64,000 nt of DNA from Jatrophihabitans sp. GAS493 (GTDB lineage Bacteria > Actinomycetota > Actinomycetes > Mycobacteriales > Jatrophihabitantaceae), in NCBI RefSeq assembly GCF_900230215.1, contig NZ_LT907982.1, forward strand, positions 1,426,001 to 1,490,000. Direction: 5' to 3'. How positions within the stretch are numbered: position 1 is the first letter of the stretch; each line of letters begins with the position of its first letter. The translations under genes were made by a program, and so were the position numbers. Positions 24,510 through 40,364 of the stretch are shown piece by piece. The notes beneath the pieces are model-generated. The model was not told the DNA's origin, did no database searches, and saw only the letters and a list, made by a program, of their open reading frames with translations.

Positions 24510-27500
24510 TTGAGTCGTCATGCTGCCATCCCGGCGAACCGGTCGAAGGCGGCCCGTCCGGCCGACCCGGTCCCGGCGTCGGCGTCGGCGTCGGCGTCCG
24601 GCTCCGGATCCGTCCGTAGCGACTCCGGTCGCCGGAGCACCCCAGGGCTGAGCCGAAGGCAAGCCGGGGCGCTGCTCTGCGCCCTGCTGCTGCTCGTCGG
24701 GGCGGTGGTGGCCGCCTCGTCCCTCGTCAAGCCGAGCAAGGCCCGTGCCTTCGACCTCTTCCACGGCTCGATCTTCCTCGGCGATGACCGAGCTCCGGTC
24801 GCCGTCGATCTGACCAACGGAAAGCCCACCGTCCGGCTGCTTAACGCCTACGCCCAGGTCAGCGCCGAGAGCGAGACCGGGATCGACGTCGTGCCGCTCA
24901 ACTCGGGCACGCTGCTGGTGAACAAGGCGACCGGTGAGTTCAATGTGGTCGACACGGCGGGATTCGTCGTCAAGACCACCGACGGTGGCGTGGCGCTGCC
25001 CAAGGTAGCCGGGCAGAGCGGAACCCAGGCCGTCCCGGCCGGCGACTCGGCCTACGTCATCCAGTCCGGCGCCCAGAACACGGCCGTCTACCTCGTCGGT
25101 CAGACGACGGTCGAAGCCGCCCGCACGGCCTCGGCCCAGGTCCGACCACGGGCCTCGGTGAAGATCGCCGAGTCCACCGCCGGCGCCGCTGGGTCGGCCG
25201 TCAGCGCGAATGGCGACCTCTGGATCCTCTCCGGGTCAGCCACCGGCGACCGGACGCTGCGCCAGCTGAGCCTCCCGGCCAACTCCACCGACGGCGTGGA
25301 GCTGACGACGGTCATCCGGGGATCCGCCCCGCAGCTGGGGGCACTGGCGGTCAGCTCCAGTGAGGCGACGGGCTCCACGACCGGCACCAGCAATCCCGGC
25401 AGCCTCGGCAGCGGTGATTCCATCGCCCTGGCGACGGCGACCACACTGACCCGCTACACCCAGGATGCACAGGATGGCACTGGTTACCACGCCAGCCGTT
25501 TCACGATCTCCGGCCTGCCGGGCACCGACCGGATCCTGCCGGCCACCGGCGGGGTCGGGGCGCAGCGATTCCTGTTCCACGGCCCGCAGGGCTGGTCTCT
25601 GGTCACTACCCCGTCCTCGGGGCAGTCGGCCGAGCTGACCCGTCTGACCGGAGTCGCGGGCGACGCCGACCTGGTGGCGCCGGCGATCAGCAACGGCACG
25701 CTGTACACACTTGACCGGACGAACGGCACGCTGCTGGCCGTCGACCTCGGCAGCGGGCGGAGCAGCGGGGTCGCCGGGATGGCGAAGTACCCGGTGGTGG
25801 CCGACGCGACCGGAAAGGCGCTGGAATCGGCCGACTTCGTCGACACCTACATCTTCGCCCGTGGCAGCCGCATCGTGGTGAACTCGCCGAATCACCGCCT
25901 CGCGGTCATCCTCTTCACCGACGGAAAAGCCAAGCCGCTCTCGATCGACAAGAGCACCGCGGTCGACCTGAACGCGGCCGGCGGCGCGGCGGCGGTGGCT
26001 GACACCCGGACGGCCGAGCAGCGCCGGCAGCATCCGGCCCCGGCCCCGGGGCAGCCGACGCCGGCGATCGCGGCCCCGGCCCAGCAGGTGAACAACACCG
26101 CCCAGTGCACTACGACGACCCAGATTCCGCACATCCCGAAGATCACCACGGTTACGCCGGCCGCCCGCTCGGTGAACCTGCTCTGGAGCTACCCGCTGCT
26201 CGACAGCCAGGACTGCATACCGTCGACGTACACCGTTGCGGTGACCCTCGTCGGCGGGTCGGCCCCGAAGCCGCCGGGCGCCCTTACCGTGCAGGGACAG
26301 AGCGGGGCCAACTTCACCGGCCTCTATCCGAACTCCCGCTACCAGGTGGTGGTGACGGCCTTCATCAACGGCCGGGGCACCTCCTCGACTCCGACGACGT
26401 TCACGACCGGACGCGAGGGGCCGGCCGCGCCGACGGCGGTGCAGACGTCGGCCGACAGCAGCGGAGATTGGACCGTCACCTGGAACGCCTGCAACTCGAC
26501 CCTCAGCGGCTGTGTGCAGGCGGCCAACTGGTCGATCACCCCGACGTTCTGTGACGGCGCAGGGCTGTCGTCGCCGCTGTCGCCGTTGGTGATCACCGCC
26601 GATCCGACGCTCTCCAAGGTCACCGCTACCTACCCGGGCACGGCCTCCACCCTCGGTCGCGGGGTGAGCTTCGCCGTGCAGGGCATCGGCCCGCAGGGCG
26701 ACGCCGGCGCGACGACGGCCGACAGTTCGTGCGTCTACAGCTGGTCTCCGCTGGTCGCTTCGGCTTACTCGCTGCGGGCTAGCCAACCACCGACGACCGG
26801 CTTCGGGGAGACCTCGACCTCCACGTTCACCCTGTCGATCACCGGTGATCCGGTGGTCGTCGGGGGCGGCGCCGGGGTTCAGTACAACTACAAGCTGCTC
26901 TCCGACGGCAACACCGTGAACAGTCAGGGTCCGACCTCCAAGACCTCGGTCGTCTTCTCCGGGCTGATAGCCGGGAAGGAGTACCAGGCCGAGGTGCTCG
27001 TCGTCCCGCCGCCGCATTCGCCGGCCAGTGGCGTCGTCGTCGGCCCGATCGCGATGACCCCGGCTGCTTCGGCCTGGCCTGCCCTCACCGCCACCTCGAC
27101 CTTCCAGAGCGATGATGATGCGACCACCGGAACGCTGTCGGTCGCGATCGGCGGCCTCGGCGACGGCGCGGCCGGGAGCGAGCGGTACCACCTCGGCAGC
27201 GGAACGCTCACCTGCGGGAACACGAGCATGAATCTCCCCCAGGACGGGTCGTTTGACCCGTCAACCCCACTGGTCTTCAACAACATCAACCGGCTGCTCT
27301 ATCGAGGCTCATGCACGGTGGCCGGACTCACGCTCACGGAGGCCGGGACTGGTTCCTACTTCGGCGGAACCACGTCGCCTTCCTTCGCCGACGACGGGGT
27401 GGATCTCGGTCAGCCACCTTATGCCGGCGGCCCGAACGACTTCACCGCCAGCTTCGATGCGACGGCGACCAACGTTCTGGTCAAGTACGTCGGCCATGAT

Positions 27501-27788
27501 CCGGCGGCGAGTCTTTACCAGGGCTTCGTCGTGTCGGTCAGCCGTAACGGCACGCCCTGCGGCACCGCCAGTTACCCCAGCTCGACGCCGAGCGGCACCT
27601 ACACCGTTGCCCTCACCGACACCGATGACTGCCGTGACAGCCCGGGAGATGCGGGCACCTGGTCGGCGAGCGTCAAGTACACCTTCCTCACCGCGGCGAA
27701 GAGTGCGAGCGCCCCGGTCACCGGGTCACCACCCTCCTTCATCCCGGTGACGCCAACCCCTGAGCCCACCCCCGAACCGACTCCCTAA
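24510..27788 (+). CDS. large secreted/anchored protein with fibronectin type III domains
   Basis: 1092 residues. A basic, Ala/Ser-rich cytoplasmic tail (~1-48) precedes one hydrophobic span (AGALLCALLLLVGAVVAASSL), so it is exported and N-terminally anchored. Residues ~75-510 contain repeated short beta segments (GTLLVNKATGEFNVVDTAG, GTLYTLDRTNGTLLAVDLGS) that look like a beta-propeller. After a Pro/Ala-rich hinge come fibronectin-III-like modules (from ~550: TTVTPAARSVNLLWSYPLLD; GLYPNSRYQVVVTAFINGRG; then GLIAGKEYQAEVLVVPP). It ends in a TPEPTPEPTP tail. The TTG start has GGAAGG upstream. It heads the MoxR-DUF58-TgpA operon, so it is a likely cell-surface client or scaffold of that system. 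Confidence 0.7.
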   Translation: MSRHAAIPANRSKAARPADPVPASASASASGSGSVRSDSGRRSTPGLSRRQAGALLCALLLLVGAVVAASSLVKPSKARAFDLFHGSIFLGDDRAPVAVDLTNGKPTVRLLNAYAQVSAESETGIDVVPLNSGTLLVNKATGEFNVVDTAGFVVKTTDGGVALPKVAGQSGTQAVPAGDSAYVIQSGAQNTAVYLVGQTTVEAARTASAQVRPRASVKIAESTAGAAGSAVSANGDLWILSGSATGDRTLRQLSLPANSTDGVELTTVIRGSAPQLGALAVSSSEATGSTTGTSNPGSLGSGDSIALATATTLTRYTQDAQDGTGYHASRFTISGLPGTDRILPATGGVGAQRFLFHGPQGWSLVTTPSSGQSAELTRLTGVAGDADLVAPAISNGTLYTLDRTNGTLLAVDLGSGRSSGVAGMAKYPVVADATGKALESADFVDTYIFARGSRIVVNSPNHRLAVILFTDGKAKPLSIDKSTAVDLNAAGGAAAVADTRTAEQRRQHPAPAPGQPTPAIAAPAQQVNNTAQCTTTTQIPHIPKITTVTPAARSVNLLWSYPLLDSQDCIPSTYTVAVTLVGGSAPKPPGALTVQGQSGANFTGLYPNSRYQVVVTAFINGRGTSSTPTTFTTGREGPAAPTAVQTSADSSGDWTVTWNACNSTLSGCVQAANWSITPTFCDGAGLSSPLSPLVITADPTLSKVTATYPGTASTLGRGVSFAVQGIGPQGDAGATTADSSCVYSWSPLVASAYSLRASQPPTTGFGETSTSTFTLSITGDPVVVGGGAGVQYNYKLLSDGNTVNSQGPTSKTSVVFSGLIAGKEYQAEVLVVPPPHSPASGVVVGPIAMTPAASAWPALTATSTFQSDDDATTGTLSVAIGGLGDGAAGSERYHLGSGTLTCGNTSMNLPQDGSFDPSTPLVFNNINRLLYRGSCTVAGLTLTEAGTGSYFGGTTSPSFADDGVDLGQPPYAGGPNDFTASFDATATNVLVKYVGHDPAASLYQGFVVSVSRNGTPCGTASYPSSTPSGTYTVALTDTDDCRDSPGDAGTWSASVKYTFLTAAKSASAPVTGSPPSFIPVTPTPEPTPEPTP

Positions 27789-27827
27789 TCACGCCAGCAG
27801 ATGAGTAACCCAGCAAGCAGGAGAGAC

Positions 27828-28802
27828 ATGACGAATCCGGACACCGCGGCCACCAACATCGCCCGCGCCGTCGATCGGCTCTGCACCAACATCGGCCAGG
27901 TCATCCAGGGCAAGCCCGAAGTGATCCGCAATGCGGTCATCTGCCTGCTGGCTGAGGGACACCTGCTGATCGAGGACGTCCCGGGCACCGGCAAGACCTC
28001 GCTGGCCCGGGCGCTGGCATCCTCGATCTCGGTCACCTGGAACCGCATCCAGTTCACCCCCGATCTCCTTCCCTCCGACGTCACCGGGGTGGCGATCTTC
28101 AACCAGGGCACGTCGGAGTTCGAGTTCCGTCCCGGCCCCATCTTCGCCAACATCGTGCTGGCCGACGAGATCAACCGCGCCTCCCCCAAGACGCAGTCGG
28201 CGCTGCTGGAGGTGATGGAGGAGGCGACCCTGAGCACCGACGCCACCGTCTACCCGATGGATCGTCCGTTCATGGTCGTCGCGACCCAGAACCCGATCGA
28301 CATGGAGGGCACCTACGTCCTGCCCGAGGCTCAGCTCGACCGGTTCCTGATGAAGCTTACGGTTGGCTACCCGTCGGCGTCGGCCGAGGCGGCGGTGCTG
28401 CGCACCCAGAAGATGGAAGCCACGGTCATCCGGCTGAGGCCGGTCCTCACCGCCAACGACATCGAACGAATCATCAATGAGATCAAGCTGAATGTCGATG
28501 TCTCACCGGTGATCGAGGACTACATCGTCGCGATCGCCGCGGCCACCCGCACCTACTCCGAGCTACGTCTCGGGGTCTCGCCGCGAGGCAGCCTGGCCCT
28601 GCTCCGGGCCGCCCGCGCCGCCGCCGGGGTGGCCGGCCGTTCCTACGTCACACCGGAGGATGTCAAGGAGATGGCGCCGGTCGTGCTCGCCCATCGGTTG
28701 ATCCTGCAGCCGGAGGCCGAGTTGCAGGGACGCACCGCCGCCGAGATCATCACCCGCGCGCTGCAGAGCGTTCCGGTGCCGCGTACGGCGCCCGTCGGAT
28801 AG
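27828..28802 (+). CDS. MoxR-family AAA+ ATPase
   Basis: 324 residues from ATG 27828, with AGGAG five bases upstream (an in-frame ATG at 27801 lacks such a site). Walker A is in EDVPGTGKTSLARALA, Walker B in IVLADEINRASPKTQSALLE. Sensor 1 is in FMVVATQNPIDMEGTYVLPE, and the sensor 2/lid helices include LGVSPRGSLALLRAARA. MoxR ATPases act as chaperones that assemble or activate partner proteins, usually encoded next door with DUF58 and vWA/transglutaminase-type membrane proteins, exactly as here. Confidence 0.92.
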   Translation: MTNPDTAATNIARAVDRLCTNIGQVIQGKPEVIRNAVICLLAEGHLLIEDVPGTGKTSLARALASSISVTWNRIQFTPDLLPSDVTGVAIFNQGTSEFEFRPGPIFANIVLADEINRASPKTQSALLEVMEEATLSTDATVYPMDRPFMVVATQNPIDMEGTYVLPEAQLDRFLMKLTVGYPSASAEAAVLRTQKMEATVIRLRPVLTANDIERIINEIKLNVDVSPVIEDYIVAIAAATRTYSELRLGVSPRGSLALLRAARAAAGVAGRSYVTPEDVKEMAPVVLAHRLILQPEAELQGRTAAEIITRALQSVPVPRTAPVG

Positions 28803-28805
28803 TCC

Positions 28806-29939
28806 ATGACTCGGACCGGGATCATCGCGCTGATCGCCGCGTTGGGAATGCTGACAACGGGGCTCTGGCTGAATTGGGTTGCCTTCTCGGCGATCGGAAT
28901 CAGCTTATTTCTGTTGCTCATTCTCGGTGGAATCAGTGTCGCCCGTCCCTCGCAGCTGACCATTGATCGGCAGATCCAGCCGCCCCGGGTGCCGAAGGGT
29001 TCTCCGGCGATCGCCTTCCTCACCTTCGCCAACCGCGGTCGCAGTAGCGTCGGGGTGACGGTTGCCCGGCAGCCGTTCGGCTCGATCAACGTCCGCACCG
29101 TGATCCCCCGGCTGCGTCGCGGCGAACGGGGGATGCGCACCTATCGCCTGCCGACCACACACCGCGGCATCTTCGACGTCGGGCCGGTCGAGGTGAATCG
29201 GGCCGACCCGTTCGAACTCTTCCGCGTATCCCGCCGCTACGCCGAGGTGGAGCGGATCTGGGTCTATCCGCGGCTGCTCCCCTTCCGTCCGCTTCCGTCG
29301 GGTCAGATCCGCCACCTCGAGGGCCCCTCCTCGGACACCGCGCCGCAGGGCAACATCACCTTCCATCGACTCCGCGACTACAACGTCGGTGACGATCTAC
29401 GTTTGGTTCATTGGCGATCCTCGGCCCGCACCGGCCGGCTGGTCGTGAAACACAACGTCGACACCTCGCAGCCCTACAGCGTGGTGCTGCTCGATCAATC
29501 TTCGTCGGTCTACACGCCTGCGACCTTCGAGTCGGCGGTCGACGTCTGCGCCTCGGTGCTCACCGCCGTCTCCAGCAACAAGGCTCCGGCCGAACTGCGC
29601 AGCACCGACGGGACGATTCTCGGTGGCCCGCGGCTGCGGGACGTGACATCGCTTATCGACTATCTGACCGGTATCAAGGCGTCCGACGCCGCGCCGTTGG
29701 AGGCTCAGCTCCTTGCCCTGCGGCGAGCGCATGGCGGCACGTCGCTGGTGGTCGTCACCGGAGTACTGGACCCCGCCGACCTCCCCGCCGTGGCGGCGCT
29801 GCGGCGTCGCTTCGAGCGGCTCGTCGTCATCTCCATCACCTCGCAGCAGAAAACGCCGATCTCCTTTGCCGGTGTCCGGGTGATCGTCGCCGAGGACGCC
29901 GACGAGGCGTGCGCGCTCTGGAATGTGCAGGGGCGCTAG
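28806..29939 (+). CDS. DUF58 domain-containing membrane protein
   Basis: 377 residues. Two closely spaced hydrophobic helices lie at ~5-45 (GIIALIAALGMLTTGLWLNW; AIGISLFLLLILGGISVA). Next comes a beta-rich segment, then the DUF58 signature around GNITFHRLRDYNVGDDLRLVHWRSSARTG (quoted in part: YNVGDDLRLVHWRSSAR), after which a vWA-like fold runs to the end (VVLLDQSSSVYTP). It is the standard partner of MoxR ATPases. It starts three bases after the moxR stop and ends directly at the TgpA start. Confidence 0.88.
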   Translation: MTRTGIIALIAALGMLTTGLWLNWVAFSAIGISLFLLLILGGISVARPSQLTIDRQIQPPRVPKGSPAIAFLTFANRGRSSVGVTVARQPFGSINVRTVIPRLRRGERGMRTYRLPTTHRGIFDVGPVEVNRADPFELFRVSRRYAEVERIWVYPRLLPFRPLPSGQIRHLEGPSSDTAPQGNITFHRLRDYNVGDDLRLVHWRSSARTGRLVVKHNVDTSQPYSVVLLDQSSSVYTPATFESAVDVCASVLTAVSSNKAPAELRSTDGTILGGPRLRDVTSLIDYLTGIKASDAAPLEAQLLALRRAHGGTSLVVVTGVLDPADLPAVAALRRRFERLVVISITSQQKTPISFAGVRVIVAEDADEACALWNVQGR

Positions 29940-32339
29940 ATGATTCGTCGCCTGATGCCCATGTGCATCTTTCCGCTCGCGGTGATTGCCAACGGCTTCG
30001 CCAGTTCGCCGTGGCTGCGCGCGTTCCCGGCCGCCACACTGGCCCTGCCGCTCTTCGGCGCGGCGCTGATCAGCGTCCTCCTCCCGCTGGTGACGGCCCG
30101 GCTGGGTGCGTCGCTGCTGCGTGGGGTCATCGTCGACATCGCCGCGTTCGTCCTCTATTCACTGGTCGTCGTCCTCGGCGAGCCGCTCGGGTTCGGTGAC
30201 CTCGTGGACGGGCTGGTGCACGGGCCTTCGCAGCTGCTCACCTTCGCCCTGCCGCTGGTGAGCCCGCCGACCCTGATGGTCACGCCGGTGGCGATCTGCT
30301 GGCTGGCCGGGGCGATCGGGGGCGAGGTGCTGAGCCGCCGCCCGAGTTCGCTGGTGCCGTACGCGGGCTGGCTGATCGCATTTGGTATCTCCTACGCCGC
30401 GACCGAGCGGGCCACCGGCATCGACCTGGGCGCCGCGCGGATCATCGAGGCGGAACTCGCCGGAGGACTACTGGCCACGATGGCGCTGCTGCGCCTCGTG
30501 CAGGTATGGACCCGGGACTCAGTCGGGCGGGACGCGACCGAGGGGGATGGCGAGCTCCCGTTACGGCCGCTGCTGGTCGGGGTCGTCTCAACCGTGGTGG
30601 TTGCGGTGCTGGCGGGATTCCTCGTGCAGGCCGATCTCTTCGGGGGAGTGCCGAAGGCGCCGGAGCGGGTGCCGGCGGTGAACCAGGCGGCGCCGGTGAC
30701 GCCGTTGGCCTTCGTCTCGTCGCTTCGGCCGGCGGCCGGTGCCCCGGTTGGCCCGGCGCTGTTCACCGTCTCCACCGATCGGGCGTCGAACGGATACTTC
30801 GCGCTGGCCAGCGTGGATCTCTACGACGGCGACAGTTGGTCGTTCAACCGGACATTCCGCCCCTCGGGAGGTGTCGTACCGGCCGACGTCGACCCGACCC
30901 TGACCCCGGATGTGCAGGAGATATCGCAGGTTTACCGGGTCGCCTCGCCGACGCTGGTCAATTCACCCTGGATGCTCTACCTCAACCGGCCGATGAGCGT
31001 CACCGACCTCGGCATCAACGTCGACTCGATGAGCGGCATGATCGTCCCCGCTGAGGCAGTGCGGGCCGAAGCCAGCTACCAGGTCTCCTCGCTGGCTGAT
31101 GCGCGCACTCTCGCCGGGCTGCCGACGACCTCGCAGCTCGAGGTGGGGGGTGCCCCGATCAACACCCAGCTGCCGGCGTCCATCCGCGCCACGATGCTGA
31201 AGGTGGTCGACTCCTTCTCCAACGAGACCGGCAAGTCAGCCACCTCCTCGGTCGAGTTCCTGCAGGCCCTGGCGGCCGACCTGCGGAACAACTATGGGCT
31301 CTCCGGCGGTCCGTCGACGGCGTCGTCCTCGCCGGCGTCAGACGCCGTCCCCGAGTCGGGGACGCACACCGGCGGCACCAACTTCTCCGACGTGGTGGCC
31401 TCGATCATCGGGCCGCAGCGGGCCGGCACCCCGGAGCAGTTCGCCACCATCTTCGCCCTGGTCGCGCGGCAGCTCGGGGTCCCGGCCCGGGTGGTGACCG
31501 GATTCCGAGTGCAGCCCAGGGGCAGCGATGTGCCCGCCGGTACCTATTCGGTGACGGCGACCCAGGCGACGACCTGGGTCGAGGTTCCGGTGCAGGGCGT
31601 CGGTTGGGTTCCCGTCGACACCGTCCCCGCCTCCTACCTCAACCAGCAGCAGAGCCGCGGTATTGGTGCCGCGGTCCCCACCCCGGCCGCGACGGCGCCC
31701 CCCAGCCAGAATGCGCTGATCGACACGAACAACGGCGGTCACGCGGTCGCCGGCAAGAGCGCAGTGCCGGGCAGCGGCGGCTCCTCCGTGCTACTGACGA
31801 CCCTGCTGGTGGTGGCACTGGCGCTGCTGTTGGCGGCGCTCGTCGTCACGCTGCTGCTACTGCGCAAACGCCGTCGCCGGCGGCGGCGCTCGCAGCTGGC
31901 CGATCCACGGCAGCGACTCATCGGCGCCTGGGCCGAGAGCCTCGACCTGCTGGCCGAGTCCGGCCTCAGTGACATCACACACCTCACCGGCGCTGAGATA
32001 GCGACGCAGACGGCGCTGCACTTCGGTGATGAGTCGGGCGGGCAGATAGCAACACTGGCCCGCTCGGCCGACCGCGCCCTGTACAGCCCGCGGAGCACGA
32101 TCGGTGAGGACGCGGCCGACGATGCCTGGCAGACGCAACTCGCGCTCGCCCGGTCGGTACACGAACAGCTCGGTCGGCGGGAGCAGCTTCTCGCCATGCT
32201 CCGACACTCGACGGTCTCCAGGCCCGCGGCAGGGCCGGAGGGCCCAGCCTCGTGGGATCGCCCGCTGCTGGAAGGCGGGGCGGGGTCTCGATCTGGGCGG
32301 TTAGGGCGACTCTTCGGGTTCTTCGGCCGTCGTCACTGA
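29940..32339 (+). CDS. TgpA-like membrane protein with catalytically degenerate transglutaminase domain
   Basis: 799 residues. N-terminal membrane helices (~1-195) and another span at ~215 precede a large extracytoplasmic domain with the transglutaminase core near 495-565. A second span (~620-642) leads to a basic cytoplasmic tail with a DUF4129-like helical domain. In active members the core reads G-x-C-E-x-F-A. Here it is GTPEQFA with Pro498 in place of Cys, and the DAHAW motif is QATTW with Thr544 in place of His; only Asp560 (GWVPVD) remains. Neighbouring structure (ARQLGVPARVVTGF) is intact. It is therefore probably a pseudoenzyme. It begins immediately after the DUF58 stop, completing the operon. 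Confidence 0.82.
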   Translation: MIRRLMPMCIFPLAVIANGFASSPWLRAFPAATLALPLFGAALISVLLPLVTARLGASLLRGVIVDIAAFVLYSLVVVLGEPLGFGDLVDGLVHGPSQLLTFALPLVSPPTLMVTPVAICWLAGAIGGEVLSRRPSSLVPYAGWLIAFGISYAATERATGIDLGAARIIEAELAGGLLATMALLRLVQVWTRDSVGRDATEGDGELPLRPLLVGVVSTVVVAVLAGFLVQADLFGGVPKAPERVPAVNQAAPVTPLAFVSSLRPAAGAPVGPALFTVSTDRASNGYFALASVDLYDGDSWSFNRTFRPSGGVVPADVDPTLTPDVQEISQVYRVASPTLVNSPWMLYLNRPMSVTDLGINVDSMSGMIVPAEAVRAEASYQVSSLADARTLAGLPTTSQLEVGGAPINTQLPASIRATMLKVVDSFSNETGKSATSSVEFLQALAADLRNNYGLSGGPSTASSSPASDAVPESGTHTGGTNFSDVVASIIGPQRAGTPEQFATIFALVARQLGVPARVVTGFRVQPRGSDVPAGTYSVTATQATTWVEVPVQGVGWVPVDTVPASYLNQQQSRGIGAAVPTPAATAPPSQNALIDTNNGGHAVAGKSAVPGSGGSSVLLTTLLVVALALLLAALVVTLLLLRKRRRRRRRSQLADPRQRLIGAWAESLDLLAESGLSDITHLTGAEIATQTALHFGDESGGQIATLARSADRALYSPRSTIGEDAADDAWQTQLALARSVHEQLGRREQLLAMLRHSTVSRPAAGPEGPASWDRPLLEGGAGSRSGRLGRLFGFFGRRH

Positions 32340-32404: not shown

Positions 32405-34999
32405 CTAGTGGGTGGCGCGGTCCGACTTTCGCGGCGCGAGGGACTCGCCGATCCGATACCGCTCCTGATAGCCCTCGACGATCGCCAATAGTCGATTGGT
32501 CGCTGTCGTCGCTCCGGCCGTCGGCCAGAGCAGCGTCTCGTCGTCGGTGGCGTGGGCGACCAGGAGGCTGCGGTCGCTCTCGGTGCGGCTGTCGGGCAGC
32601 GGCCGGAGTTGAATGCTCCGCACGTCGCTCCAGTCGAGGGTGACGCTGCGGAAGCCGTCGCGCGTCCGTATCCCGACGTCATCGACCGTCAGCGTGCGGC
32701 GGGCTTTGACGCACACCAGGCTGGTGACGAGCGCAAGTGCGACGACCACCAGCAGGACCAGGCCGGTGTGGGAGGTGGAGCCGCCGAGGCTGGCGATCGC
32801 GTAGAGGAAGAGCGAGATGAGGACGGCACCCCACAGGATTCCGCCGACCCAGAAGACCCCGGGATTGTCGGCCGCCGTGTGTGACCAGGACTTCAGTAGC
32901 AGGTGCGGAGGCAGTGACTTGACGTCGACTGGCTCGGTGGAGTCAGCCGGTCGGGCGGAGATCGCTTCCGTGCGCACGGCCGGGGCAGCCTGGTTGAAGG
33001 CCGGAGGTGCCAGCGGAGTCGAGGCCGTCGGAATCAGCGCTGGATGGGTGGTCGCCTCGGCTTCGTCGTCGGTCGCGTCGACTGCCGGCTCGCTGACCGT
33101 CTCGTTGGGCTGCTCCGGGACCTGCTCGGACGGGTGCGCAACCATGTCCAACCCGGAGTGCGCACGCGCGGGCTCATCGGTAAGCCCGGGCTCGGGGGTG
33201 AGGTCGTAGGTACCCGGTTGAGCCGGCCGGGGGTGGGCCGACTCGACCTCCAACTCGTCCATGCCATCGAAGAGGTCGGGCCCACGGTGCTGGCCGGCGG
33301 CCTGGGTGGGCGGTATCCCGATGGGCGGTATCCCGATGGGCGGAATCGGGTACTGCACGATCACAGGTTCGGACCAGGAACTGCTCGCCGCCGCCAGCAC
33401 CGGCGCGGGGGGCGCAGTGTGGGCCGCGCGGAGCGGTTCCGGCTCTGGCTCTGGCTCTGGTTCTGGGTCTGGTTCTGGTTCGGGCTCTGGTTCGGTTTCG
33501 AGCTCTGGTTCTGCCGGTGCCGCCGCCGGTTCGGCCGCTGCCTCCGCATCGGTCGGGGCTTCCGGCTTGGCCGGAGCACCAACGTCGATCGCTTCCGCGG
33601 CCTGAAACTCCTCTCGGGAGGCGGCCAGCGGGTCCACAAACTCGGTTGTTCCGGGATTCACGACGAGCATCCGCACGAAGGGAATCGGTGTCGGGGGTGC
33701 GGCGACCGACGGCGTGGGGGCCGCGGTAGCGAATACCGTCGAAGCGATCAGCGGCTCGGTTGCTATCGCGGCCTCCGCGACGGCGGGTTTTTCGGCGGCG
33801 ACCGGGGCATCGGCGGCGACCGGGACTTCAGCAACTACTGGTTCGTCGGCGACGACTGGGACTTCAGCAACTACTGGGTCGTCGGCAACGACCGGTTCTT
33901 CGTGAGGGGGCCGGGTTTCGATGAAGCTGGATTCGAACCTGTCGACCGCGGGCGCAGGCGTGGCCTCCGGAGCGGGCGGAATGAATACGGGCTCGGGCTC
34001 GACCATGGCGACCGGCTCGATTGCCGGGATCGGCTCGGGCACGGCGATCACCTCGCGGTGCTTGACCGGTCCCGGCAGCCGGCTGATCGACGGCTGGCTC
34101 CCTATCGTCGCCGTACCCCCGGCCCCGCGAACCAGGAACTGGGTCTGCGGCCACCCCTGCGCCTGCTCGACCTGCGCAAGTTCGGCCGCGAACTCGGCAG
34201 CCGTCTCCGGACGGTGATCCTTGTCCTTCGACATCGCCGCGATGAGCAGATCGGAGAGCTGGACGGGCACGCCTTGGGCCAGCACCGGGCGCACCGGGTC
34301 TCGCAGAATCCGTAGGATCACCGACGCTGGCGACTCACCCTCGTAAGCACGAAAAGCGGACTGTCCGGAGACCAACTGGTAGAGGGTCGAGGCCAACTCA
34401 TAGACGTCTGTCGCGGCGGAGGTCTGCTTCCCCTCCAGCAACTCCGGTGCGGCGTGCAGCGTGGTGAAGTCGAAGAGGCCGGCCGTCGTCTCGCTGGCCG
34501 ACTGCAGCATCGCAACCCCGAAATCGGCCAGGGCCGGCTCTCCGAACTCGGTGATCAGGATGTTCTGCGGCTTGACGTCGCGGTGCAGTATCTGTGAACG
34601 GTGGGCCGTCTCCAGTGCCCCCGAGACCTTGATCGCGATCGACACGGCCTCGTCTGCTGGCATCCCCTCGCCGCCGCGAATCCGGTCGGAGACCGAACCG
34701 ACACAGAGCTCCAATACGAGCACGGGCCGCCCGTCGGGGGTCTGAAAGGTTCGATAGAGCGTGACGATGTTGGGGTGCGAGCTCAGCGCCCCGAGCGCGA
34801 TCGACTCACGGTGAAACGACTCCAGCGCCCGAGGCGAGACGTCGCGCACGTTCAACAGTTTCAGGGCGACCGCGCGCCCGGTGCTGCTCTCCTTGGCGCG
34901 GAAGACCGTCGCCAGGCTGCCGATGCCGATCTCCGACACGTCGACGAAGCCAGGGAAGAGCGACGTCTCGCCGCCCCGCTCCCTGCGCCAGCGTGCCAT
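32405..34999 (-). CDS. membrane serine/threonine protein kinase with repeat-rich linker and C-terminal PH-like domain
   Basis: 864 residues. Kinase domain ~15-275: glycine loop IGIGSLATVFRAK, Lys47 (AVALKLL), HRD at 139-141 with Asn146 (LHRDVKPQNILI), DFG from Asp159, and APE as HAAPELLEG. Residues ~300-690 form a low-complexity linker with Val-Val-Ala-Asp/Glu-x-Pro repeats, a long (Pro-Glu)n tract and a Pro-Ile-Gly-Ile-Pro repeat. Two hydrophobic spans (~735-790) follow (VGGILWGAVLISLFLYAIAS; GLVLLVVVALALVTSLVCV). A small PH-like domain comes after them (RRTLTVDDVGIRTRDGFRSV, LDWSDVRSIQL). It converges on the MoxR-DUF58-TgpA operon, and such kinases often sit in or beside these loci. Relevant substrates are unknown. 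Confidence 0.85.
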   Translation of the reverse strand: MARWRRERGGETSLFPGFVDVSEIGIGSLATVFRAKESSTGRAVALKLLNVRDVSPRALESFHRESIALGALSSHPNIVTLYRTFQTPDGRPVLVLELCVGSVSDRIRGGEGMPADEAVSIAIKVSGALETAHRSQILHRDVKPQNILITEFGEPALADFGVAMLQSASETTAGLFDFTTLHAAPELLEGKQTSAATDVYELASTLYQLVSGQSAFRAYEGESPASVILRILRDPVRPVLAQGVPVQLSDLLIAAMSKDKDHRPETAAEFAAELAQVEQAQGWPQTQFLVRGAGGTATIGSQPSISRLPGPVKHREVIAVPEPIPAIEPVAMVEPEPVFIPPAPEATPAPAVDRFESSFIETRPPHEEPVVADDPVVAEVPVVADEPVVAEVPVAADAPVAAEKPAVAEAAIATEPLIASTVFATAAPTPSVAAPPTPIPFVRMLVVNPGTTEFVDPLAASREEFQAAEAIDVGAPAKPEAPTDAEAAAEPAAAPAEPELETEPEPEPEPDPEPEPEPEPEPLRAAHTAPPAPVLAAASSSWSEPVIVQYPIPPIGIPPIGIPPTQAAGQHRGPDLFDGMDELEVESAHPRPAQPGTYDLTPEPGLTDEPARAHSGLDMVAHPSEQVPEQPNETVSEPAVDATDDEAEATTHPALIPTASTPLAPPAFNQAAPAVRTEAISARPADSTEPVDVKSLPPHLLLKSWSHTAADNPGVFWVGGILWGAVLISLFLYAIASLGGSTSHTGLVLLVVVALALVTSLVCVKARRTLTVDDVGIRTRDGFRSVTLDWSDVRSIQLRPLPDSRTESDRSLLVAHATDDETLLWPTAGATTATNRLLAIVEGYQERYRIGESLAPRKSDRATH

Positions 35000-36356: not shown

Positions 36357-37994
36357 TCAGGATCCGCTCCCGGAGCCCTGCGCGGCGATGCCGACGATGA
36401 TCAGCAGGATAAGGCCGACGATACCGATCCATCCGATGATCCGGCCGGCGGTGGCCAGGCCACTACCGCTCTGGCCGGTCTGCGCGATCTGCCGCTTTGC
36501 CTTGCGGGCGAAGACGATGGCCAGGACGCTGCCGATGCCGTAGATCCAGAACAAGCTCAGCACTAACGAAGCGACAGCCATTCCATTGGTTCCGGTCTTC
36601 GTGCCGGAAGTGAGCGGTGCCCGGTAGACCGGCGGGGGCTGCGGGCGCTGCGGGGGCTGCGCGGGCTGTGGGTGATACGGCGGCGGCGCACTGTAGGTCG
36701 GGTTGTAGGGCGGTTGGTTACCGTACGGCGGCTGGCTGCTGTACGGCTGGTTGGTGTACGGAGGTGGACTCTGGTTCCAGGCCGGCGCATTCGGGGGCTG
36801 CGGTGGTGGTGCCCGGTAGGCCTCCGATGGGGGAGGTGGCGGGGGTGGCGGCGGTTCCGTGGTCGGCTCCGGTCGGCGCGCCTCGCCGCGGGCGGCCGTT
36901 GCGGCGGCGTCCGGCGGCGGTTCAGCTGCCGGTGGGACCGCCTTCGGTGGAGCCGGTCGCACGAAGGCCTCCACCCGCAGGATCTGCACGCTGCCCGTGA
37001 GTCGATCGCGAACCAGGACCTTTCCCCGGTTATTGCCCGGCACGGGGGAGAGCGTCACGACCAACTTGTCGCCGATGAGCGCGACGTTCAGCCAGTCGTC
37101 GAAGGTCTCAGCCGTGATCGAGATGTCATCGTCGCTGAACCGGAGGATCTCCACAATCTCCGGACGAAGCTTCTCGTCGTGGTCGACGTCGCGAAGGGTG
37201 ATCACGCTCTCCGACAGGCCGAATGGCGCCTCTGGCGTGTGCCGTGACCTGGTCGGTTCGGCGGCGATCGCGATCGGCGGGGACGGCTGCTTGATCCGGG
37301 CCAGCGATATGTCACCGTCACCGTCGAATCGGCTGTGCGGGATCTGCTTACTGGTCTCAGCCAGTCGCTTCTTGACGTAGTCGTAGATCTCGTGAAGATC
37401 GATCAGCCCGTCACCGTTCGAGTCGACCGCCCCACCGAGCAGACCCTCCACGAGGTGTTCGGTGAAGAGGCTGGTGCCGGTCGGTGATTGGGAATCGTTG
37501 GCGAGCGTCTTACCGCGGGCACTCGACACCACGTAGCGGCCCGGTCCGCCGAGCTGGGTGTCGATGGCCCCACCTTTGAACATGCCGCTGCTACAGCAAT
37601 CCAGCACGAGGATGGTGCGCATCGACGACGCGCCGCGGATGAAGTCGTTGATCGTCTCGTCGCTGATGCCGGTACGCGGTAGCCGATCGGAGCGGGTGTC
37701 CCGCCCGCAGAGGTAGAGATGGCTGTGGTCGTCCAGGAGTCCGTGCCCGCTGTAGTAGAGGAGCATCAGGTCCTCGCGCCCACCGGAGGCGAAGAACTCG
37801 TCGAGTTCGTCGAGGATCTCGTCGTGCTTTCGCTCGGTGACCAGGCGGACGTTCTCGTCGCTGAACAGGCCCGTCTCGGAGTCGACGAGGGCGCGATGCA
37901 ATCTTGCGACGTCCTTGGTGGGTGCGTTCAGCGGGTTGAGGCCGGCGTCCGCCTCGAACGTGCTGTTGCCTATCAGCAGGGCGCGATAGGTCAT
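36357..37994 (-). CDS. caspase-family (C14) protease with EF-hand, Pro-rich linker and membrane anchor
   Basis: 545 residues. Caspase-like domain ~1-185: MTYRALLIGNSTF, catalytic His84 in YYSGHG and the Cys pair 133-134 in LDCCSSG (Cys134 the likely nucleophile). Residues 191-202 form an almost ideal EF-hand loop (DSNGDGLIDLHE). A small beta-rich domain follows (~255-345: ESVITLRDVDHDEKL ... VLVRDRLTGSVQIL). Then come ~120 residues of Pro/Gln/Tyr-rich linker and a DUF4190-like C-terminus with two membrane helices (MAVASLVLSLFWIYGIGSVL; IIGWIGIVGLILLIIVGIAA). The start overlaps the EACC1 stop as ATGA. The architecture suggests a calcium-responsive, membrane-tethered protease in a conflict or cell-death module; that role is inferred. 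Confidence 0.85.
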   Translation of the reverse strand: MTYRALLIGNSTFEADAGLNPLNAPTKDVARLHRALVDSETGLFSDENVRLVTERKHDEILDELDEFFASGGREDLMLLYYSGHGLLDDHSHLYLCGRDTRSDRLPRTGISDETINDFIRGASSMRTILVLDCCSSGMFKGGAIDTQLGGPGRYVVSSARGKTLANDSQSPTGTSLFTEHLVEGLLGGAVDSNGDGLIDLHEIYDYVKKRLAETSKQIPHSRFDGDGDISLARIKQPSPPIAIAAEPTRSRHTPEAPFGLSESVITLRDVDHDEKLRPEIVEILRFSDDDISITAETFDDWLNVALIGDKLVVTLSPVPGNNRGKVLVRDRLTGSVQILRVEAFVRPAPPKAVPPAAEPPPDAAATAARGEARRPEPTTEPPPPPPPPPSEAYRAPPPQPPNAPAWNQSPPPYTNQPYSSQPPYGNQPPYNPTYSAPPPYHPQPAQPPQRPQPPPVYRAPLTSGTKTGTNGMAVASLVLSLFWIYGIGSVLAIVFARKAKRQIAQTGQSGSGLATAGRIIGWIGIVGLILLIIVGIAAQGSGSGS

Positions 37995-38389
37995 GACGTC
38001 GCCTCGATCTTGCGAGCCAGGGCTTCGACCAGCGGGGCCAGCGTCGTCGAATCGGCGTTCTCGGCCGACAGCGTGACTTCGCGACTCGCGCCCTGGTCGT
38101 CGGTCCAGACCGCATGTACGGAGCGAGTTCGGTCCCGGGCCAGCCAGATCCGCAGCATCTCGATGGTGGTGGTGAACGCGCCGGCCGACCCGAGGGAGAG
38201 GATGATCTGGTCCAGGCCACCCTTCATGCCCGGCGTCGGCACTGCTGCTACCTGGACGCAGCCGGTCTCGACTCGTAGTTCGTGGCGAAACTCTGCGACC
38301 TGAGCGAGCCAGCGATCATCGTTCTCGTCATACCGGTCGGTCTGCGCCGTGACCGTTATCGCGAGGGCATCGGAGCTCATGAGCGTCAT
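37991..38389 (-). CDS. EACC1-like effector-associated component
   Basis: About 132 residues from ATG 38389; ATG 38380 and an upstream GTG at 38416 are alternatives. The protein has the features of EACC1 proteins described in computational work on caspase/NLR conflict systems: an early strand (ALAITVTAQT), an LRVETG segment, and a helix after GGLDQIILSLGSAGAF. TTIEMLRIWLARDRTRSV, a strand ending in VTLSAENAD, and a final helix (LAPLVEALARKIE) complete the pattern. EACC1 genes typically stand immediately upstream of caspase-like peptidase genes, as here with a four-base overlap. Its biochemical role is not established; it is proposed to couple sensing to effectors. Confidence 0.7.
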   Translation of the reverse strand: MTLMSSDALAITVTAQTDRYDENDDRWLAQVAEFRHELRVETGCVQVAAVPTPGMKGGLDQIILSLGSAGAFTTTIEMLRIWLARDRTRSVHAVWTDDQGASREVTLSAENADSTTLAPLVEALARKIEATS

Positions 38390-39029
38390 CCCCAAGGCTA
38401 GGCAGCGCCCGGGCACGGGTCAGTATTGGCCGTGTTGCGGGCAGTATCCATCTTGAGCCATCGACCACCGATTTGATACACCTCGGCGCGATTGGCCGGG
38501 CAAACGACAGGCCCAGACGCACCGACACCGGTATCGGCGAAGCGTCAGCTCGCTTCTCACTCAGAGCGGACTCAGCCCAAGGATGTGAGAGCGTCTATGG
38601 CTCGCCGCTTGAAAGTGCAGACATTGCAGCGGTCTGCCGGGACGCTATGGCTACTCCGGTCAATCCACCCACCCGGTTCGACCGCGCGGAAGCGATCGCC
38701 GGATGCCAATACGGAGAATGGGTCTACGACAACTGACTCTTTGTCGGAGGTCGGTCCCGGCCGGCCCCAGATATGTGGAGGGTGCGCGCTATACGCAAGC
38801 CAGCACTGCAGACCGTATCGAGATCGACTCGGCAAATCCCCTTGGACCTACGGGTCCGTGCGCTTTCGAGGACCGGCCGGGGCGTGCGCGCCGCCAGGTC
38901 CGGAGCGGGGACGTTGGCCAATCGGGCCGCGCCGGCGTTCGTTTGACCGGTGCCGGCCAACTGCGGCCGTTCTCGGTTTCGTGCCGGGAGGGTGAGACGC
39001 TCGTCAGCGGCGTAGTTGAGGCTTCCGGT
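38390..39029. other. 640-base gap with no recognised gene
   Basis: Lies between the divergent EACC1 and DUF1254 genes. Several short open frames exist on both strands, but none has a family signature, a good ribosome site or actinobacterial third-position bias throughout. It presumably contains the two divergent promoters. I see no inverted repeat, tRNA or transposon end. Confidence 0.5.
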
Positions 39030-40364
39030 ATGACCGATACCGATGAGCTGGCTGCCGAGGCCTACCTGTACTACTACCCGCTGGTGGAGAACCTTCGTCA
39101 AGTCGTGCGGTATGTGACCACGGGAGTTGGGTCGAACCCACCACGGGACTTCAACACGTTCTCCCACGCCCGTAAATTGGCCGGGCCGCAAGACACATTT
39201 GTCACGATCAACAACGACACGCTGTATTCGATCGCCCAGCTGGATCTCTCGGGCGGTCCCGTGCTCGTCGAGGTTCCCGACACCGGTGACCGGTACTACG
39301 TGCTGCAGTTCGTCGACGCGTGGTCGAACAACATTGCCTACATCGGGACCAGGTCGACCGGGTCAGGCACTGGTCGGTTCGTGGTCGTCCCCCCGCGTGG
39401 TGCCGACGGCTTGCCCGACGGGTACACCGCGGTCACCGCCTCGACGAACATCGTGTCCATCGTGGGGCGGTTCGCCTGCGCTGGTCCCGACGACGTCAAA
39501 GCGGCCAACGCCGCACAGGACGCATTGGTGCTGCGCCCCTTGGTAGAGGCCGCGTCGTACATCGGCATTCCATCGGTCGGGGATGGGTTGTCTCATGAGC
39601 TGCGGTTCTGGGAGCAGGCCAGGGTCTGGTCCCAGACATTCCCCGCACCGGCTGGCGACGACGAGTTCACCGACAAATACCGCCCTCTCGGGATCGTGGA
39701 AGGGGAGTCGCCCTATCTCGAACCCGGCGAGTTCACCGACGCGATGAGTGCCGGCTATCGCAGCGGAATCGAGAAGCTGGAGTACCTCACCCATCACGGC
39801 AGTTCGCCGGTGAACAACGGCTGGACCGTCGGCATGCATATGTTCGACTACAGCGTCTACAACCTCGGGCTCGGCACCCGCGACGAGGTGGAATGGAAGA
39901 TCGGCGACCCGGCGCGTCGCATCGTCGAGCGTGCCGTGGCCGATCGCCTCGGTCTGTGGGGCAATCACGGTTACGAAGCCGTGTACGCCCAAGCCTTCAC
40001 CGACATCAGCGGCGCGCCGCTCGTCGGTGAGAAGACCTACGCCGCGACGTTTGACGAACCGCCACCAGTGGGCGCGTTCTGGTCGATCACCCTGTACAAC
40101 ATCCCTCAGTACTACCTGGTTGAAAACGCCATCGACCGCTACTCCATCGGCGACCGCACACCCGGGATCCGGTACGACGCTGACGGCAGCCTCACCATCA
40201 CGTTCAGCCATACCGAACCCACCGACCCAACCAGCCGCGCCAACTGGCTGCCGACCCCCAGCGGCCCCTTCCGTCTCGTCCTGCGGCTCTACATCCCCGG
40301 AGACCCCGTCCTCGACGGCACCTATCAGCTCCCAGCTATCACGGAAGGTGTCGGGCATCGGTGA
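39030..40364 (+). CDS. DUF1254/DUF1214 domain-containing protein
   Basis: 444 residues from ATG 39030, with GAGG eight bases upstream; the longer open frame has no good start. The N-terminal DUF1254 part reads AYLYYYPLVENLRQVVRYVT, FNTFSHARKLAGPQDTFVTI, NNDTLYSIAQLDLSGGPVLV and YVLQFVDAWSNNIAYIGTRS. The C-terminal DUF1214 part reads FWSITLYNIPQYYLVENAID and PFRLVLRLYIPGDPVLDGTY. These are conserved beta-rich proteins of unknown function, often secreted elsewhere, though no signal peptide is visible here. It stands alone on its strand before the tRNA. Confidence 0.85.
   Translation: MTDTDELAAEAYLYYYPLVENLRQVVRYVTTGVGSNPPRDFNTFSHARKLAGPQDTFVTINNDTLYSIAQLDLSGGPVLVEVPDTGDRYYVLQFVDAWSNNIAYIGTRSTGSGTGRFVVVPPRGADGLPDGYTAVTASTNIVSIVGRFACAGPDDVKAANAAQDALVLRPLVEAASYIGIPSVGDGLSHELRFWEQARVWSQTFPAPAGDDEFTDKYRPLGIVEGESPYLEPGEFTDAMSAGYRSGIEKLEYLTHHGSSPVNNGWTVGMHMFDYSVYNLGLGTRDEVEWKIGDPARRIVERAVADRLGLWGNHGYEAVYAQAFTDISGAPLVGEKTYAATFDEPPPVGAFWSITLYNIPQYYLVENAIDRYSIGDRTPGIRYDADGSLTITFSHTEPTDPTSRANWLPTPSGPFRLVLRLYIPGDPVLDGTYQLPAITEGVGHR

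Follow-up and report, generated by a model that had tools for sequence, protein, structure and literature searches.

The protein described here, from Jatrophihabitans sp. GAS493, is TgpA-like by its fold and by its gene order, and we class it as a pseudoenzyme belonging to a cluster of the PFNA type. In the window (the whole stretch of DNA analysed, 64,000 nucleotides in length), its gene closes a run of four that starts with an FN3-domain surface protein, and neither the catalytic cysteine nor the catalytic histidine of transglutaminases is found in its site. We consider it probable, with somewhat better than even confidence, that selection has maintained this protein to couple the MoxR and DUF58 proteins to the FN3 protein, presumably by binding. 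The features concerned are the following:

24510..27788, + strand: FN3-domain protein, 1092 aa, TTG start codon uncertain (ORF; Pfam fn3, 33.6 bits)
27801..28802, + strand: MoxR-family AAA+ ATPase, 333 aa (ORF; Pfam AAA_3, 205.4 bits)
28806..29939, + strand: DUF58 protein, 377 aa (ORF; Pfam PF01882, 44.3 bits)
29940..32339, + strand: TgpA-like pseudo-transglutaminase, 799 aa (ORF; Pfam; AlphaFold2 model; fold match)
31431..31433, + strand: Pro498 (codon CCG), catalytic Cys position (translation, alignments, crystal-sequence profile)
31434..31439, + strand: Glu499-Gln500, adjoining the lost Cys position (alignment)
31569..31571, + strand: Thr544 (codon ACG), catalytic His position (translation, alignments)
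31617..31619, + strand: Asp560 (codon GAC), the sole triad residue retained (translation, alignments)
32405..34999, - strand: Ser/Thr kinase with a C-terminal bacterial PH domain (Pfam Pkinase, 142.1 bits; bPH_6, 24 bits)

The FN3, MoxR, DUF58 and TgpA-like genes lie on the same strand with intergenic gaps of 12, 3 and 0 bases, the DUF58 stop codon abutting the start of the TgpA-like gene, and likely form one operon toward which the kinase gene is convergent. The MoxR protein carries the VPGTGKT, LADEIN and ATQNP motifs. The FN3-domain protein is beta-rich with a predicted helix at residues 52-71; its structural model is poor (pLDDT 65.1; the top Foldseek matches are animal FN3-type receptors at low TM-score) and may be informative only as far as the beta modules. 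This surface-protein gene was absent from the preliminary description of the locus. Further along the window, a caspase-domain protein (Peptidase_C14 and DUF4190 by Pfam; 36357-38416, - strand) adjoins an EACC1 protein, and a DUF1254/DUF1214 protein is encoded at 38703-40364 (+ strand). EACC1 stands for Effector Associated Constant Component 1, and caspase-domain/EACC1 pairs occur in described conflict systems.

A Pfam scan places a Transglut_core domain at residues 435-561 of the TgpA-like protein (52.3 bits, cut-off 23). The preliminary description had read Pro498 and Thr544 in place of Cys and His with only Asp560 kept, and translation, alignments and the crystal-sequence profile all agree with it: the Cys-His-Asp triad that defines an active transglutaminase is absent (P498, T544, D560). 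When a profile of 22 TgpA-like proteins is set against the crystal sequence of P. aeruginosa TgpA (6g49, E 8.9e-24), the TgpA residues Cys (in SGFCAHYA), His (in DAHAW) and Asp (in DPT) fall opposite Pro498, Thr544 and Asp560, and three alignments that include complete-triad TgpA proteins give the same placement of the columns. The sister genome G018 encodes a protein of 83% identity with an identical P/T/D site. Among 11 family-level members, the window protein included, residue 498 is Pro in 10 and Ala in one, residue 544 is Thr, Trp or Tyr (Trp in eight) and residue 560 is Asp in all, while E499, Q500, A502, T503, A543, T545, W546 and E548 are identical in 11/11. Since G018 and all 11 family-level members agree, the site is not due to chance or to a sequencing error.

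That the residues were misaligned, with an intact triad in another part of the domain, is very improbable, and nothing was found in favour of it. The only cysteines of the 799-aa protein are residues 9 and 120, both in the N-terminal membrane part, and a check of the whole protein sequence found none in the extracytoplasmic domain; a shifted Cys triad is thus ruled out. The only histidines between the membrane parts are 476, common to 3/11 relatives, and 601, which lies beyond the domain; no His column of the domain is kept in more than 3/11 relatives. The agreement of the three alignments with the crystal-sequence profile also speaks against an alternative alignment.

Structure prediction, which the preliminary description had proposed as a check, likewise revealed no shifted intact triad and showed that a TgpA-like fold is kept. 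The AlphaFold2 model, built from an alignment of 55 rows (mean pLDDT 82.1, pTM 0.76), predicts about eight long N-terminal helices, an extracytoplasmic domain at about 252-566, a long helix at 616-651 and a C-terminal helical bundle. In the region of the site (residues 481-560), seven of the eight ten-residue blocks average a pLDDT above 90, and Pro498 is the first residue of a helix spanning 498-511. For residues 252-566 of the model, the fold comparison gives Z 20.7 and 20.2 with the crystal structures 6g4h and 6g49 of P. aeruginosa TgpA, and Foldseek returned E values of 2.6e-9 and 6.4e-9 against the crystal structures of that protein. Pfam finds neither TgpA_N (PF11992) nor DUF4129 (PF13559) in the window protein at E up to 10; in the same genome, TgpA_N scores 142.8 bits in a complete-triad paralogue and 40.1 in a Cys-less paralogue, and DUF4129 scores 31.5 bits in the complete-triad paralogue. 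The C-terminal bundle (residues 643-751; 31866-32192) shows similarity to HEPN folds (up to Z 10.2, for 2hsb), at a Z level that is common for helical bundles.

The TgpA-like gene is under purifying selection. By a simple counting method applied to one genome pair (own genome and G018), dN/dS is 0.108/0.654 (about 0.16) for the whole gene, 0.062/0.66 for residues 435-566 and 0.042/0.61 (about 0.07) for residues 490-562, the lowest of seven stretches, with the disordered linker 567-615 nearly as low (0.064/0.83, about 0.08). That two catalytic residues are lost could be taken as a sign that the gene is decaying and heading for loss, which is scarcely credible in view of an open frame of 799 codons, of these low ratios over the gene and at the site, and of the Cys being missing in 102 of 185 related proteins. 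The earlier suggestion that the family may no longer cross-link is supported as regards the loss of catalysis: the domain has no Cys, the site has no His, the fold is kept and the gene is under purifying selection. The organism itself retains a cross-linking potential, because the same genome encodes a TgpA with a complete triad.

The loss extends well beyond this protein. The TgpA-like proteins compared came from genomes within the same family, class and phylum and within the order of another genome handle, together with named records; deduplication left 185 distinct cores (six matches with fewer than 200 residues ahead of the core were excluded). The Cys is present in 83 of them, all with a full triad (50 C-H-E and 33 C-H-D), and missing in 102; these figures are not a prevalence and the set is no census, because the wide genome searches used Cys-less queries throughout and scoring was limited to the top 3 to 15 candidates in each genome. 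In the 102 Cys-less proteins, the Cys column holds Asp (43), Ser (23), Pro (12), Glu (10), Ala (8), Gly (3), Val (2) or Thr (1). The His is kept in 23 and the Asp/Glu in 64; 31 have lost all three residues, and 16 retain both His and Asp/Glu, so that some Cys-less members may have another chemistry. Across the 155 genomes covered, Cys-less proteins occur in 87, Cys proteins in 76 and both in 8. A loss restricted to one lineage is rejected: of the 38 family codes in the set, 21 include Cys-less proteins, as do two genomes of other classes, G417 and G422. A search of largely open-access literature found no paper describing this Cys-less branch.

Several Cys-less genes may share a genome. The TgpA-like sites of the GAS493 genome read C-H-D, D-H-P and P-T-D; the second Cys-less gene (D-H-P; locus L075, C1:1957500-1973500) is likewise preceded by a giant Ig/FN3 ORF and by MoxR and DUF58 genes. 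Ten genomes (G000, G079, G117, G123, G140, G169, G236, G262, G310 and G312) carry at least two Cys-less TgpA-like genes of differing site type. In a D-H-D subgroup (L085, L086, L094, L120, L121, L124, L125 and L128), Asp replaces Cys and both His and Asp are retained, which could reflect a different chemistry rather than none.

As the preliminary description had suggested, actinobacterial TgpA homologues were aligned and the loss of the triad was mapped on trees. The three catalytic columns were excluded from the tree alignments and the Cys/Cys-less label was mapped on the best tree, which showed a single label change in each of five builds: (i), 152 rows with FastTree (support 99); (ii), 70 rows with an IQ-TREE mixture model (SH-aLRT 99); (iii) and (iv), 78 rows with an outgroup, in a quick search (support 89) and in a careful search (86/87, one change in 88% of bootstrap trees); and (v), 74 rows after removal of the four longest branches (72/87, one change in 72% of bootstrap trees), a tree in which the outgroup did not form one side of a branch. 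The outgroup proteins (Shewanella, Cupriavidus, Paenibacillus, Acetoanaerobium and Halorubrum) all have a complete triad, which suggests a loss rather than a gain, on a root branch that is weak (62). A single old loss is thus favoured by these trees and not proven, two changes being within the bootstrap range.

What is conserved in place of the Cys? A Glu-Gln pair directly follows the Cys column in 101 of the 102 Cys-less proteins (the remaining one has Glu-His) versus 26 of the 83 Cys proteins. Glu499 itself is found in 102/102, with a relatedness-weighted frequency of 1.00 as against 0.38 in the Cys proteins, where the first residue of the pair varies. Directly before Glu499, the Cys-less proteins have any one of eight amino acids. 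Because the pair is near-invariant in the Cys-less proteins, the constraint seems to have shifted next to the lost Cys. Upstream, 87/102 Cys-less versus 5/83 Cys proteins have His in the residue 481 column, a count that is alignment-dependent, since a stricter count (Gly-His no more than 26 residues before the Cys column) gives 71/102 versus 4/83. R517, G521, W546, E548 and W556 are fully conserved, being common to Cys-less and Cys proteins, and may be structural.

These patterns bear on two other explanations. The site could have been re-tooled rather than silenced, the invariant Glu499-Gln500 and the clade-specific upstream Gly-His making up a new catalytic or metal site. The fixation of Glu499 beside a varying residue and the enrichment of His in the 481 column speak for this idea; the drop to 71/102 under the stricter motif count speaks against it, as does the absence of Gly-His from the window protein, its family-level relatives and L262, and we regard it as quite unlikely. 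With Asn in the 481 column and no Gly-His, the window protein itself cannot be a case of it. The protein could also play a plain structural part in a MoxR-DUF58 membrane machine, the transglutaminase domain being a leftover fold with no ligand. The wide drift of the three catalytic columns across the clade speaks for such a role, and the five residues common to Cys proteins may be structural; however, no stretch measured has a lower dN/dS than the one surrounding the former site, even if the linker comes close, and eight residues around the lost Cys and His are invariant in all 11 family members. We hold this second alternative to be rather unlikely and keep the reading of a selected pseudoenzyme that couples the FN3 protein to MoxR and DUF58.

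The gene neighbourhood may point to a partner. We scored a locus as positive when an FN3/Ig-like ORF on the same strand ended no more than 1.5 kb before moxR, and as testable when the available sequence included moxR and no less than 2.5 kb before it, which dropped 17/75 Cys-less and 41/77 Cys proteins. Of the testable loci, 43 of the 58 without Cys were positive, as against 0 of the 36 with Cys (window not counted), by search models that may favour Cys-less loci, as they were seeded from these and from the window. The corresponding Fisher value, 3e-14, assumes independent loci, which these are not: the count is not independent evidence because it possibly reflects one old event inherited by the clade. 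In the other 15 testable Cys-less loci, no FN3/Ig gene was detected at that place. Pfam scans of hand-selected upstream ORFs, which are free of the seeding bias, found fn3 in 22 and Big_9 in 16 of 30 ORFs from Cys-less loci (kinases instead in 2), versus fn3 in none of 10 ORFs from Cys loci (carbonic anhydrases in 4, other families in 3, no match in 3).

A further 18 neighbourhoods, all Cys-less, have the FN3/Ig gene upstream of moxR in 16; in L266 it lies directly before DUF58 with moxR not detected, and L263 has none at that place. The arrangement recurs with variations. In Streptomycetaceae NBC_01309, fn3 precedes DUF58 and moxR is elsewhere; in Nonomuraea gerenzanensis (S-M-Y) and in one Embleya strain (S-L-Q), moxR is preceded by an fn3 ORF; and Actinomyces oris encodes an Ig-like protein, MoxR, DUF58 and a Cys-less protein with D-K-D in the catalytic columns, annotated as a transglutaminase-domain protein (WP_271289477.1). 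In G417 (L262), which belongs to another class, the order is FN3-MoxR-DUF58-TgpA with a P-W-D site and a kinase opposed as in the window.

The loss of Cys and His, together with this gene company in many actinobacteria, suggests that the protein holds or signals rather than crosslinks. The extracytoplasmic domain would bind rather than modify, its most likely ligand being the co-encoded FN3/Ig protein or the traversed cell wall. The membrane and cytoplasmic parts would relay the bound state inward, where DUF58 and the MoxR ATPase may respond, perhaps under control of the kinase, and MoxR/DUF58 would then assemble, place or release the surface protein. The preliminary description had imagined a binding scaffold, in this lineage, that receives a MoxR/DUF58 input. 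The input is consistent with the gene order, which is its basis, and the scaffold would fit the proposal made here; the restriction to one lineage proved too narrow, given the 21 family codes and the two genomes of other classes.

It is tempting to speculate further that MoxR, DUF58 and the Cys-less TgpA form a phylum-wide surface-assembly machine that handles giant Ig/FN3 proteins; that catalysis was lost once, early, with the constraint moving from the Cys to the Glu-Gln pair; that this pair, plus the new Gly-His outside the clade of the window protein, makes up a new binding or catalytic site; and that the PFNA cluster of Bifidobacterium, discussed for host contact, is one late member. Taken jointly, these four propositions are possible though doubtful.

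The MoxR/DUF58/TgpA trio is little understood and its Cys-less members are annotated as transglutaminase-domain proteins. If the branch cannot cross-link, enzyme-minded work on the PFNA TGM would be misdirected, and the evident candidate client would be the FN3/Ig surface protein. Genomes that carry both a complete-triad and a Cys-less gene allow the role of the trio in the absence of cross-linking chemistry to be tested directly.

How does this system compare with known ones? The window MoxR matches the bpMoxR model of the MoxR-vWA-beta-propeller ternary systems weakly (34.3 bits), but Pfam finds no vWA in the five proteins of the cluster, where DUF58 stands in its place. Human EPB42 and FBXO21 are eukaryotic, of another architecture and not known to have a MoxR/DUF58 partner. 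Like the window protein, they belong to the transglutaminase superfamily, and their transglutaminase-like domain is reported to be catalytically inactive (PMC10318531). The window protein shares the fold of P. aeruginosa TgpA (Z 20.7, as above) and, as in TgpA systems, combines a transglutaminase core with moxR and DUF58 genes directly upstream. In that species, we take PA2875 and PA2874 to be the MoxR- and DUF58-type genes. TgpA (PA2873) is reported to be co-transcribed with both, to have transglutaminase activity in vitro and to appear essential (PMC3507681). Unlike TgpA with its full triad, the window protein has neither the Cys nor the His, and its moxR comes after an FN3 gene.

The closest parallel in gene order is the PFNA cluster of Bifidobacterium, which comprises pkb2, fn3, aaa-atp, duf58 and tgm (PMC8430577, PMC6803598). 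The kinase Pkb2 of B. longum is reported to phosphorylate the MoxR ATPase (PMC8430577), and published accounts treat the TGM as an enzyme; in the main text of the two PFNA papers the terms "triad" and "active site" are absent and "cysteine" occurs in one sentence only. The mycobacterial moxR operon is noted to resemble PFNA, in passages that leave the TGM site aside (PMC12067865). The window shares with PFNA the order fn3 - MoxR - duf58 - tgm on one strand and an adjoining Ser/Thr kinase gene; it differs in that the kinase gene, first and co-directional in PFNA, is downstream, on the opposite strand and facing the operon.

Our own set may contain PFNA clusters proper. Seven genomes of family f92 gave a match and G495 (0.8 Mb), also of f92, gave none in the TgpA-like search; in the five that were fetched, the tgm-like proteins lack the triad (S-T-Y, S-T-Y, S-Q-Y, S-E-Y and S-Q-H), and in 5/5 their genes follow those of a giant FN3/Ig protein, of MoxR and of DUF58. 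A 16S primer that we assume to be Bifidobacterium-specific has an exact match in two of these five genomes and in none of 13 other genomes searched, which is why we presume f92 to be Bifidobacteriaceae. Six loci of family f94 (L249, L250, L252, L253, L255 and L256), from genomes without that primer, show the PFNA gene order, co-directional from kinase through giant Ig/FN3, MoxR and DUF58 to a Cys-less TgpA. If f92 is indeed Bifidobacteriaceae, the sequences would imply that the PFNA TGM is, like the window protein, not a cysteine enzyme.
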